From: Pseudomonas resinovorans NBRC 106553
GTDB lineage: Bacteria > Pseudomonadota > Gammaproteobacteria > Pseudomonadales > Pseudomonadaceae
DNA: 64,000 bases
Direction: 5' to 3'
Assembly (NCBI RefSeq): GCF_000412695.1
Contig: NC_021499.1
Span: forward strand, 2,666,001 to 2,730,000
The notes under the pieces were generated by a model. That model was not told the DNA's origin and ran no database searches. It saw only the letters and a program-made list of their open reading frames with translations. Below, in pieces: positions 5,854 to 18,100 of the stretch (within the stretch, counting starts at the first letter, position 1; each line of letters begins with the position of its first letter). Both the position numbers and the translations under genes were made by a program.

Positions 5854-5919
5854 ATGACTAAATCCCCTTGGTTGTCCGGCCCCGCGATTATTACCGCCAT
5901 TCCAGCAGTGGCGGGTTAG
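5854..5919 (+). CDS. Ile-rich leader peptide of ilvA (candidate)
   Basis: A 21-codon reading frame whose distal half reads A-I-I-T-A-I-P-A-V-A-G before TAG. It holds three Ile codons (5887, 5890, 5899), one Thr and one Val, matching the end products or substrate of the pathway encoded downstream. No Shine-Dalgarno lies close to the ATG (an AAGGAG is 25 nt upstream), consistent with leaderless translation if transcription begins near 5852. The stop codon overlaps the proposed antiterminator arm. Too short for ordinary gene calling. Confidence 0.6.
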   Translation: MTKSPWLSGPAIITAIPAVAG

Positions 5920-5960
5920 CCGACGACCAAACAGAAACCCGCCCTCGAGGCGGGTTTTTT
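5910..5960 (+). terminator. ilvA attenuator: antiterminator arm and intrinsic terminator
   Basis: The terminator stem aaacccgcc (5935-5943) pairs with ggcgggttt (5949-5957) around a CTCGA loop and runs into T residues to 5960. The same 5' arm (5936-5943) can instead pair with ggcgggtt at 5910-5917, which lies in the last codons and stop of the leader peptide. A ribosome stalled at the Ile codons would leave 5910-5917 free and favour antitermination; a ribosome reaching the stop would cover it and allow termination before ilvA. Confidence 0.65.
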
Positions 5961-15740: not shown

Positions 15741-16652
15741 ATGAGTGCATTCACCCTCAAGCACCGCCGTGACGGCGGCGACACCCCGCGCCTGGAAAGC
15801 TGGGGCGCGAACTCCGAATACGGCACCCTGCGTGACGTGCTGCTGGGCCCGGTGGACCATTACCACTGGCTTGAAACCAGCTCCATCTCGAAGAAGAGCC
15901 TGCGCCTGGGCTACCGCTTCGACGCCGCCGTGGCCCGCACCCAGCACGCCGAGATGGTCGACGCCTACCGCGAGGCGGGGGTGAAGGTGCACATGCTGCC
16001 CACCGACCCGAACCTCAAGTACCAGGTGTTCGCCCGTGACTCGAGCGTCATGACGCCCTTCGGCCCGATCGTCACCCAGATGGCCCAGTGGTGGCGCCGT
16101 GGCGAGTACGCCCCGGTGATCCAGTTCTACAAGGACAAGGACATCCCGATCTACGACATGATCAGCGCCGGCTCCTTCGAGGGCGGCGACTTCATGATGC
16201 TGCAGCCGGGGGTGATCCTCTGCGGCTATACCGGCGAGCGCTCCCAGGAGCCGGCGGTGCAGCAGATGAAGGGCTGGCTGGAAGCCGAGGGTTGGGAAGT
16301 GAAGCTCTATGGCATGGACCCTTTCTTCGTGCACATGGACGCGCTCTGCGTGATGCTCGCCGAGCGCCTGGCGGCGGTCTGCGTCGATGCGGTGGAGCCC
16401 GAGCTGGTGGACTGGCTGAAGGCCAAGGGCATCGAGATCGTCGACATCCCTTTCAAGGACGCCATGGAGCTGGGTTGCAACGTGGTGGCCCTGGGCGAGG
16501 GCAGGGTGCTGCTGCCGTCCACCAGCCTGACTCTGAAGGAGAAATGCCTGGCCTTGGGGCTGAAGGTCTATGACCCGGACATCAGCATGATCGCCAAGGG
16601 CGGTGGTGGCGTGCACTGCATGTGCCAGCCGCTGCGTCGGGATCTGGTGTAG
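15741..16652 (+). CDS. Arginine-deiminase/DDAH-like guanidino hydrolase
   Basis: 303 aa of the amidinotransferase/deiminase (pentein) superfamily. Catalytic residues are recognisable: D100 in FARD, the EGGD motif at 147-150, H198 in FVHMDALCV and C293 in GGGVHCMCQPL. Such enzymes hydrolyse a guanidinium to a ureido group plus ammonia or methylamine, or transfer the amidino group. The adjacent carbamoylase favours hydrolysis to a ureido (N-carbamoyl) product. A GGAG site precedes the ATG. The substrate is not identifiable; dimethylarginine, an N-amidino amino acid or another guanidino acid are possible. Confidence 0.82.
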   Translation: MSAFTLKHRRDGGDTPRLESWGANSEYGTLRDVLLGPVDHYHWLETSSISKKSLRLGYRFDAAVARTQHAEMVDAYREAGVKVHMLPTDPNLKYQVFARDSSVMTPFGPIVTQMAQWWRRGEYAPVIQFYKDKDIPIYDMISAGSFEGGDFMMLQPGVILCGYTGERSQEPAVQQMKGWLEAEGWEVKLYGMDPFFVHMDALCVMLAERLAAVCVDAVEPELVDWLKAKGIEIVDIPFKDAMELGCNVVALGEGRVLLPSTSLTLKEKCLALGLKVYDPDISMIAKGGGGVHCMCQPLRRDLV

Positions 16653-16687
16653 TCGCATACACACTCAGGTTTTCAGCAACCTGGAAT

Positions 16688-16740
16688 GGGTCGAGCTTGC
16701 GATATCCCTCAGATGGGTATCGCTTCGCTCGACCCATCCT
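16688..16740. repeat. REP-type palindrome (second family), left half of a copy split by the IS element
   Basis: gggtcgagc...gatgggtatcgcttcgctcgacccatcct. The continuation of this repeat (acgaa) is found on the far side of the IS element at 17939. Unbroken relatives at 27338-27447 and 58225-58296 read cccatcctacgaa across the point of insertion. Confidence 0.8.
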
Positions 16741-16921
16741 TGTATCTCTCCAGGGCAATGAGGTTAGCTACCTTGATGCCCAAGGCCGGGAAAGCCGTTC
16801 CCATCCTGAGAGCCTGACTCTGTTTCGTAGATTGTGCTCCCGGCCCACTTCTCCAACTCCTGAATGGTATCCAAGCCCCTCCAGCGGAGTGAGGCTGTAT
16901 GAACAAGGCAAGGATCGAGAG
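16741..16921 (+). ncRNA. Bridge RNA (left-end guide RNA) of the IS110 element
   Basis: Structure seen: a 5' stem-loop (gggca 16753-16757 with tgccc 16777-16781; aggt/acct inside). A target loop is closed by ggccggg (16784-16790) and cccggcc (16839-16845). A second, donor-side loop spans about 16856-16912. Target guides: cccatcct (16800-16807) is identical to the left target, and ttcgtag (16824-16830) is complementary to the right target ctacgaa. Donor guides: atggtatc (16864-16871) equals the right-end tail at 17930-17937, and acaag (16903-16907) complements the left-end start cttgt. Exact RNA ends are not known. Confidence 0.82.
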
Positions 16922-17902
16922 ATGGCGGTTATTGGAATCGATGTCAGCAAGCAAAAGCTCGACTGTCTGTGGCTACGCGACCCGGAAAGTCTGAAGGTCA
17001 AAACCAAGGTATTTACCAATCAAGTGGACGACTTCGCCGCGTTGGTTGATTGGTGTTGCACGCACACCGGAGCCACAGCCGGGGAACTGAAGGTGTTCCT
17101 TGAGGCCACCGGGGTCTATCACGAATCCTTGGCGTATTACCTGCACGAGCGCGGCGTTCAAGTCTTTGTCCTGAACCCGGCGCAGGTCCGCGACTATGCG
17201 CGCAGCCAGGGCATTCGTGGTAAGACGGACAAACAAGACAGCCTGGTGCTCGCCCGTTTTGGCGCAACCCAGAAGGCCCGGCGCTGGTTGCCGGAAGCGC
17301 GGGAAATCCGCGAGCTGAAAGCGATGATCGTGCGCTATGAGGCGCTGCAAGAGGACCTTCAGCGCGAACTGAACCGGCGGGAAAAGGCCGAGGTCAGTCA
17401 GGCCAGCCTCAGCGTAATGGCCTCCATCGATACGATGCTCAGTGCGTTGCGCCAGGAAGCCGAGCGCCTGAAACAAGAGATCGACGATCACATCGACCGG
17501 CACGACCAGCTCAAACGCAACCGACAGCTGCTGCAGAGCATCCAGGGCATCGGGGATGTCCTCTCCCGTCATCTGCTGGCGTTTCTGCACAGCCGCGACT
17601 TTGGCACTGCCCGACAATGCGCGGCTTTTGCGGGCCTGGTGCCACGACCTTGGGACTCCGGCTCATCGGTGAAGGGCAAACCTCGTTTGACCAAGGCGGG
17701 GCAGCCTCGACTGCGGGCCAAGCTCTACATGGCCGCGATTGTCGCCAAGCAGTACAACCCCACGGTTAGAGCGCTTTACCAACGTCTACTGGCGCGGGGA
17801 AAAGCCAAGATGAGCGCCCTGGGTGCCGCCATGCGCAAGCTGTTGCAGATTGCCTATGGCGTGCTCAAGACGCAGACACCCTATCAGCCGCAACCGACCT
17901 GA
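16922..17902 (+). CDS. IS110-family transposase (DEDD/RuvC-like plus Tnp_20 domain)
   Basis: 326 aa from MAVIGIDVSKQKLD. DEDD residues: D7 in GIDVSK, E in FLEATGVYHE, and the paired Asp in GKTDKQDSLVLARF. A coiled-coil linker (about 140-200) leads to the C-terminal transposase_20 domain with the serine region PRPWDSGSSVKGKPRLTK, which supplies the nucleophile in this family. The frame is intact, so the element may be active. The long non-coding region lies upstream rather than downstream of the gene, as in the IS110 subgroup (IS621 type) rather than IS1111. Only 36 nt separate the stop from the right end. Confidence 0.93.
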   Translation: MAVIGIDVSKQKLDCLWLRDPESLKVKTKVFTNQVDDFAALVDWCCTHTGATAGELKVFLEATGVYHESLAYYLHERGVQVFVLNPAQVRDYARSQGIRGKTDKQDSLVLARFGATQKARRWLPEAREIRELKAMIVRYEALQEDLQRELNRREKAEVSQASLSVMASIDTMLSALRQEAERLKQEIDDHIDRHDQLKRNRQLLQSIQGIGDVLSRHLLAFLHSRDFGTARQCAAFAGLVPRPWDSGSSVKGKPRLTKAGQPRLRAKLYMAAIVAKQYNPTVRALYQRLLARGKAKMSALGAAMRKLLQIAYGVLKTQTPYQPQPT

Positions 17903-18020
17903 TAGGGTCGGTTGCATCTGATCGGAGAGATGGTATCTACGAACCGAACGGGCGCTTTGCGCGGCGTCATCCTCTCTGCTTCGTTTCAGGCCGGTTTAGG
18001 TATCAGACCTGCTTCGCGCT

Positions 18021-18100
18021 CGCCGGCGAGAGTCACCCCTCGCCCTCCGGGAGAGGGGATGGGGGAGAGGGTGGTTTCCGCAGGCAGGGCGATAATTCGT
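18021..18100. repeat. Dispersed intergenic repeat, copy 2 (inverted relative to copy 1)
   Basis: Reads gagtcacccctcgcc, ctccgggagagggg, ggagaggg and caggcagggcgat; the reverse complement matches the segment order of 691-783. Lies in the gap between the IS element and the LysR gene. Confidence 0.6.

Follow-up and report, generated by a model that had tools for sequence, protein, structure and literature searches.

An intact IS110-group insertion sequence of Pseudomonas resinovorans with a left-end bridge RNA whose guides match the edge of a REP-like repeat

RESULTS

The element, its recombinase and its copies

The DNA analysed here, referred to below as the window, is a stretch of 64,000 nt from Pseudomonas resinovorans NBRC 106553 (NC_021499.1, positions 2,666,001 to 2,730,000). 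It carries an insertion sequence of 1,198 bp (16741-17938 in window numbering) which encodes a single protein and is flanked by an arginine-deiminase/DDAH-like gene and a gene for a LysR-type regulator. The element, its gene and its insertion site are as follows.

16741..17938, + strand: IS110-group insertion sequence, found in five copies in the host genome
16922..17902, + strand: IS110 recombinase, 326 aa, with DEDD RuvC-like and Transposase_20 domains
16688..16740 (start approximate), + strand: REP-like repeat with the target at its edge and atgggtNtcgc upstream
16733..16740, + strand: left target cccatcCT, the 3' foot of the REP-like repeat
16739..16740, + strand: CT core of the left junction (final two bases of the left target), CT in 5/5 copies
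17937..17938, + strand: CT core of the right junction, CT in 5/5 copies
17939..17943, + strand: right target acgaa

The recombinase has both domains of the IS110 family, PF01548 (DEDD RuvC-like) and PF02371 (Transposase_20) with its conserved serine, and passes the cut-off of the NCBIfam model 'IS110 family RNA-guided transposase' (208 vs 140 bits). Among solved structures its best match is IS621 (8wt6; 209 bits, recombinase residues 3-322), followed by ISCro4 (PDB 9t56; 193.5 bits, residues 3-322), a homologous recombinase that we compare by the protein alignment only. Residues D7, E61, D103, D106 and S246 align with the catalytic positions of IS621, the first four being named after the DEDD residue numbering of IS621.

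A protein search returned at least 6,064 relatives among 7,999 scored candidates, so the family is common. Four of the 17 same-genus genomes besides its own (G008, G010, G014 and G017) had 9 to 24 matches to such elements each, with two recombinase types apiece in G010 and G014. No close relatives were seen in the scan of viral_contigs, and a search of plasmid DNA yielded a single weak match, in Vibrio halioticoli, covering 12% of the element.

The host genome contains five copies of the element, four of them identical and the fifth (L005, C1:2297612-2298809) differing at one base (A16783G, numbered as in the window). Each of the five has exact ends, is inserted at a REP-like edge and shows CT at both junctions. 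The left target reads cccatcCT in four copies and cacatcCT in one, the right target acgaa in three, acaaa in one and acgga in one, and the bases immediately beyond the target vary from copy to copy. To judge from these sequences, the element has probably been active recently. One could suppose instead that it is a defective relic, no longer mobile, whose RNA is conserved merely by recent ancestry; with five copies at most one base apart at five separate REPs, and with open reading frame and catalytic residues intact, we consider this highly unlikely.

A search with the joined flanks of the window copy against 38 genomes, its own included, found no empty counterpart of the site, the matches being to the neighbouring genes or to dispersed repeats only. 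In three of the four relatives that have the left gene (L235, L236 and L238) both neighbour genes are adjacent without the element; the spacer between them is unrelated and has no repeat. The sequence to the right of the element, 17946-18089, is itself a dispersed repeat with at least 13 further places in the own genome at 80-87% identity, and the joined-flank search gave weaker matches to it in relatives too.

The left end is 181 nt long and the right end extends 36 nt downstream of the stop codon. Such a long left and short right end, as well as the CT dinucleotide core seen in the five copies, are features of the IS110 group (IS621 type). In the IS1111 group the RNA generally lies downstream of the gene, in a long right end, whereas here the RNA is upstream and the right end has 36 nt.

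Structure of the bridge RNA

The following parts of the RNA were delineated in the left end.

16745..16919, + strand: bridge RNA (match of a covariance model built with the own clade left out)
16753..16781, + strand: 5' hairpin (single-sequence fold; loop conserved; not among the alignment-predicted pairs)
16784..16845, + strand: target-binding loop with its stem (fold, RNAalifold pairs, covariance model)
16857..16915 (limits approximate), + strand: donor-binding loop with its stem (RNAalifold pairs, covariance model)

The covariance model made from 14 relatives, with the own clade excluded, matched 16745-16919 with 99.6 bits (E 5.7e-24). There was no other match of this model in the 64-kb window at E up to 10, and in the 6.48-Mb host genome it found exactly the five element copies and nothing more. 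RNAalifold predicted 26 pairs in the alignment of the 14 relatives, 20 of them with changes on both sides. For the 24 pairs that were tested, 91.6% of cells were paired vs 68.1% after shuffling, and both-side changes were present in 20/24 pairs vs 13.1; 0/500 shuffles reached the observed value in either case. Sliding the partner by 1-3 columns lowered pairing to 34.5-54.1%, which is a lenient control, as the structure came from the same alignment. The single-sequence fold gives the 5' hairpin and both loops, yet it is unexceptional (z -1.34, equalled by 19/200 shuffles); it is the comparative evidence that makes the structure secure.

The earlier note on this DNA, made from the letters of the window, had described the left end as a 5' hairpin followed by two loops and had proposed a covariance-model fold as a check. 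The model match at 16745-16919 and the both-side changes in 20/26 pairs bear out the two loops, which also appear in the fold; the hairpin is found in the fold and has a conserved loop, but lies outside the RNAalifold pairs. A 5' hairpin and two stem-loops are the structure of the IS110 group (IS621 type), and here the compensatory changes support the two loops.

The single base change of L005, at 16783, falls directly 5' of the target-loop stem; this copy scores 104 bits with the model vs 99.6 for the others. Rfam 15 has no match at the bridge RNA at the gathering threshold. The sole Rfam match in 16601-18100 at E up to 1, mir-1282 at 18008-18094, was rejected as implausible and far below its cut-off. 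Elsewhere in the window Rfam families matched at 5884-5958 (Pseudomonas sRNA P9, 77.9 bits) and 885-949 (TwoAYGGAY RNA, 47.6 bits).

Guides and their matches

Guide and handshake positions were assigned by reference to the IS621 structure (PMC11208158), from which the layout of the target-loop handshake guide and of the split right donor guide was taken.

16799..16807, + strand: left target guide tcccatcct (sequence match and covariation with targets)
16824..16830, + strand: right target guide ttcgtag, with gtag as core part and three outer bases (sequence match)
16831..16832, + strand: handshake guide of the target loop (at; AU in RNA), which can pair with donor positions 7 and 6
16864..16871, + strand: left donor guide atggtatc (sequence match)
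16899..16907, + strand: right donor guide atgaacaag, with split pairing
16908..16909, + strand: handshake guide of the donor loop (gc), whose g can pair with target position 7 (c)

Four guide words had been claimed in the earlier note, and each was recovered at exactly its coordinates: cccatcct (16800-16807) is identical to the left target at 16733-16740; ttcgtag (16824-16830) is the reverse complement of ctacgaa at 17937-17943; atggtatc (16864-16871) equals the right terminus at 17930-17937; and acaag (16903-16907) is the reverse complement of CT plus tgt, i.e. of the core and 16741-16743. Shuffling the mononucleotides of the 181-nt left end 200,000 times never brought all four words together in one sequence; multiplying the single-word frequencies gives ~8.6e-9, a rough guide, as word lengths were set post hoc. 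The left target guide is better described as 9 nt (16799-16807) with 8/9 paired, position 1 being a U opposite a target A, and the right donor guide (16899-16907) takes the IS621-like split form: A-U, two spare bases, A, CAAG. The proposed IS621-type arrangement holds: the order of the loops, the split in the right donor guide, the handshake positions, the CT core and the REP as target are all shared with IS621.

One could imagine that the guide words merely copy the flanks, through past capture of neighbouring DNA or homologous recombination, since the left guide words are identical to the flank and to the right end. The right guides, on the contrary, are reverse complements rather than copies; the guides occupy fixed places in a conserved structure; and four of the five copies are identical while the sequence beyond the target differs at each. 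We assign this explanation a practically negligible probability.

The word gagagatgg is present at the recombinase start codon (16917-16925) and again in the right end (17925-17933), and L100 and L141 have gagagatg at their gene start as well. It was considered as a fifth guide and rejected, being absent from most relatives examined. The left-end arm atctctc could pair with gagagatgg at the gene start or at the right end; its pairing with the gene start was likewise considered, as a self-standing antisense system, and rejected.

Covariation of guides with targets among relatives

Relatives were collected in family, class, phylum, order and plasmid searches; both ends were located at 97 of 123 loci, and these 97 elements formed 35 clusters at 80% recombinase identity. 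All are relatives of a single query rather than a sample of IS110 elements as a whole. Loci with no ends found or with one end only were dropped (L093-L095, L141, L146, L148, L151, L158-L160, L196, L199, L202, L203, L207, L209, L211, L212, L214, L215, L226 and L227, with the gene possibly misplaced for some of those from L196 on), as were L152, L197, L201 and L206, too uncertain or cut. The elements of Pseudomonas sp. BN417, split over contig ends, are also outside the 97.

For each cluster, the 7-nt flank directly left of the core was matched against all left ends, with the best window within positions 40-110 taken in each. Over the 35 clusters the left target guide agreed with its own flank at 222/245 positions, vs 165 +/- 4.2 when shuffled (maximum 188, 0/20,000); with one element per distinct guide (40) the count was 248/280 vs 187.1 +/- 4.4 (0/20,000). 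The guide segment therefore covaries with the flanking target among relatives of the transposase, as the reading of these segments as guides had implied. Best matches over the 97 elements were 7/7 in 61, 6/7 in 24, 5/7 in 8 and 4/7 in 4, vs 0, 13, 39 and 45, respectively, for a control 7-mer nine bases further out, so that the 12/97 elements with a best match of 5/7 or less are at background level. In the right guide the three outer positions covary weakly (29/75 in 25 clusters vs 21.6, ~0.03). In the close relative in BN417, with a recombinase 94% identical and the same guides as the window element, the junctions read have cccatcct at 8/8 left and acgaa at 6/7 right.

The handshake positions gave a further comparison. 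The base after the right donor guide (these guides being chosen by eye) is complementary to target position 7 in 33/35 clusters. Where the target has C at position 7 the handshake base is G in 28/28 clusters; where it has another base the complement is present in 5/7 (L195, L221, L198, L225 and L204), the exceptions being L220 and L222. Such covariation, seen at the level of sequence, agrees independently with the handshake idea put forward in PMC11208158. The left donor guide follows the right end at donor position 2, with T in both in 6/6 clusters that have T; the two mismatch in L193, L194, L220 and L222 (position 7) and in L142 (position 2), and the guide was not located by pattern in L219, L221, L223, L224 and L204. 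L142, from another genus, has a transposase with internal stops, yet its bridge RNA, guides and inverted repeat are well kept.

These data bear on an explanation in which the recombinase protein recognises the REP palindrome, the left-end RNA regulates translation only, as proposed for ISPpu9, and the guide matches are relics. Insertion of IS110 elements at REPs was reported at a time when guides were still unknown (PMC1525189), the transposase of ISPpu9 is reported to be under sRNA control (PMC8450116), and the fold, in which 16746-16750 pairs with 16917-16921 immediately ahead of the start codon, makes translational control plausible as an extra role. Still, guides change with targets over the 35 clusters, even between elements with 84-85% identical recombinases, and in L220 and L225, on Acinetobacter and Vibrio plasmids with very different flanks, the own guides match 7/7. 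Recognition of REPs by the protein without guides is thus very hard to credit, and the element is an intact member of the known bridge-RNA system (Durrant 2024; Hiraizumi 2024; Siddiquee 2024).

The claim that this is a natural programmable recombinase stands in the sense that guides differ naturally among relatives along with their targets; 'programmable' goes no further than that.

REP targets in the hosts

The target of the element is cccatcctacgaa. The name 'REP' was given to the repeat by its resemblance to the Pseudomonas REPs of the literature. The uninterrupted 13-nt target occurs 40 times in the host genome and its reversed control 0 times; at 30/30 of the target sites read, of the 40, atgggtNtcgc lies within 50 nt upstream. 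The 13-nt target cccatc-CT-acgaa named in the earlier note is indeed used, though its outer GAA looks like a preference rather than a strict need (ACGAA in 3/5 copies, besides ACAAA and ACGGA). GAA outer bases are found in 3/5 own insertions vs at most 40/393 available sites (binomial ~0.009), and from these counts the outer three right-target bases seem to matter in the window element.

The own genome has the 11-mer ACCCATCCTAC 393 times and CGCCAACCTAC 57 times. In G149 (taken as P. schmalbachii), where the recombinase is 84-85% identical and the guide is CGCCAACCT, the counts are 166 and 451; in G014 (taken as BN417), with a recombinase 94% identical and the same guide as in the window, they are 112 and 44. 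In these three genomes the guide fits the commoner of the two REP forms. G017 is a counter-example: the three copies examined are all in ACCCATCCT, yet ACCCATCCTAC occurs 20 times and CGCCAACCTAC 55 times. In G008, G010 and G022 the guides are directed at different words, so that these genomes are not informative in this respect. One could speculate that guides drift toward the REP form common in the host, as fits three of the four hosts that bear on it; we regard this as a weaker idea than the one on the inverted repeat given below.

Expression and proposed cycle

A candidate -35 element was read from the sequence of the right end.

17912..17917, + strand: -35-like ttgcat, which in a circle would stand 16 nt before tatctt (17934-17938 + 16741)

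In a circle of joined ends the promoter-like pair would span the core, with the RNA starting near 16747. A sigma-70-like pair across joined ends was reported for IS621 (PMC11208160), and ttgc or ttga boxes were seen near the -35-like place in right ends of relatives (by eye, uncounted). At its other end the bridge RNA overlaps the ribosome-binding region (aagga, ~16911-16915); given this overlap and the predicted pairing of 16746-16750 with 16917-16921, folding of the RNA and translation may compete.

A hairpin, gcaaccgacc-tgatag-ggtcggttgc (17890-17915), spans the stop codon of the recombinase, and its 3' arm runs into the -35-like box; L100 has a hairpin with altered arms at the equivalent place. 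The hairpin is possibly a terminator or insulator.

By analogy with IS621, to which we owe the transcription, circle, catalysis and strand order of the scheme, the cycle would run as follows. The recombinase would cut the element out as a circle; the joining of right and left ends would create a promoter, with the -35 in the right end and the -10 across the CT core, from which the left end would be transcribed as an RNA of ~170 nt. Two recombinase dimers would bind this bridge RNA. Its first loop would pair with both target strands, cccatc-CT-ac(gaa), at the REP edge, and its second loop with both strands of the joined ends, ATGGTAT-CT-TGTAT; strands would then be cut and exchanged at the CT cores, aided by handshake pairing. 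That the window holds an intact IS110-group insertion sequence with a left-end bridge RNA, which guides insertion at REP edges through a cycle of this kind, we consider almost certain.

Sub-terminal inverted repeat

The arms of an inverted repeat lie close to the two ends.

16744..16751, + strand: left-end arm atctctcc (ATCTCTCC)
17924..17931, + strand: right-end arm ggagagat (GGAGAGAT)

Around the joined ends, i.e. the donor site, these arms form an inverted repeat of 8 bp. PMC11208160 gives sub-terminal inverted repeats of 2-3 bp in the IS110 group and 7-17 bp in IS1111. In PMC11187229 the repeat outside IS1111 is absent, or short and imperfect, with two elements as exceptions that have repeats of IS1111 length and belong to a deep branch classed as IS110. 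The 8 bp of the window element is outside the short or absent repeat of the IS110 group, a descriptive trait rather than a membership criterion, and within the 7-17 bp of the IS1111 group. A search of literature listings with the openings of abstracts, together with parts of the papers cited here, found no other report of IS110-group repeats this long.

Among the relatives the repeat is at least 7 bp in 10/35 clusters and 3 bp in 14/35. Ends used in the repeat tests were chosen without repeat length as a tie-break, except that those of L191 and L193, which the rule had missed, were set by hand after viewing, not blind to the inverted repeat; L193 (9 bp) is a cluster representative, and without its cluster at least 7 bp is found in 9/34. 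The outer arms (-2 to -7) are complementary at 96/210 positions vs 71.5 +/- 6.2 shuffled (0/5,000), a comparison subject to the caveat of shared ancestry. The inner four positions gave 109/140 vs 105.3 (118/5,000), and the stretch intended as control (-8 to -13) was also in milder excess, 66/210 vs 54.2 (77/5,000). For positions -2 to -6 the count was 88/175 vs 63.2 (1/20,000), and with one cluster per distinct arm (18) it was 45/90 vs 31.6 (28/20,000). A slide of the arm by -2, -1 or +1 abolished the signal; a slide of +2 kept a weaker excess (222/20,000; distinct arms 498/20,000).

We tentatively propose, as a reading that we hold plausible though short of probable, that in the IS621-type lineage the repeat is a functional element whose length varies (reaching 10 bp here), selected for self-complementarity, and not a remnant of 2-3 bp. 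The recombinase may contact it symmetrically, immediately beyond the part of the donor that pairs with RNA, and so recognise the joined ends as donor.

DISCUSSION

The closest known system is IS621 of E. coli, as described in PMC11208160 and PMC11208158. The two elements are alike in recombinase domains, catalytic residues, a left-end RNA of ~170-177 nt, loop order, split right donor guide, handshake positions, CT core, REP target and promoter-like boxes at the joined ends. They differ in the target, which is cccatc-CT-acgaa here, whereas the loop of IS621 encodes ATCGGGCCTAC; in the right target guide, of 7 nt here vs 4 in IS621, for which longer natural ones are reported there; and in the sub-terminal inverted repeat, 8 bp here vs the 2-3 bp described for the group. 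The longer form of the right target guide raised specificity for IS621, according to PMC11208160.

The Pseudomonas elements ISPpu9, ISPpu10 and ISPa11, compared here by their description in PMC1525189 and PMC8450116, share with the window element the IS110 family and a fixed place in a REP; they are other elements at other REP positions. With the IS1111 group, or seekRNA elements (PMC11187229), it has in common an RNA-guided DEDD recombinase and a perfect repeat of IS1111 length. In that group, however, the RNA is generally downstream of the gene and its two target-matching words are in reverse order; here the RNA is upstream.

The element is a clean natural case of bridge-RNA targeting, with guides readable from the sequence and a right target guide of 7 nt, and the occurrence of ACCCATCCTAC at 393 copies in one genome adds to its value as an example. 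Its close relatives with different guides and matching targets make up a natural retargeting series. For a specialist the findings should be a moderate surprise; the long covarying repeat is the less expected part and gives them their extra value. Such a repeat raises the question how recombinases of this kind tell their own ends from the target. If the proposal made above is true, one RNA-protein complex would tell donor from target through the repeat, the division into IS110 with short and IS1111 with long repeats would fail in general, and the clade of the window element would combine an IS110-type RNA with an IS1111-type repeat.
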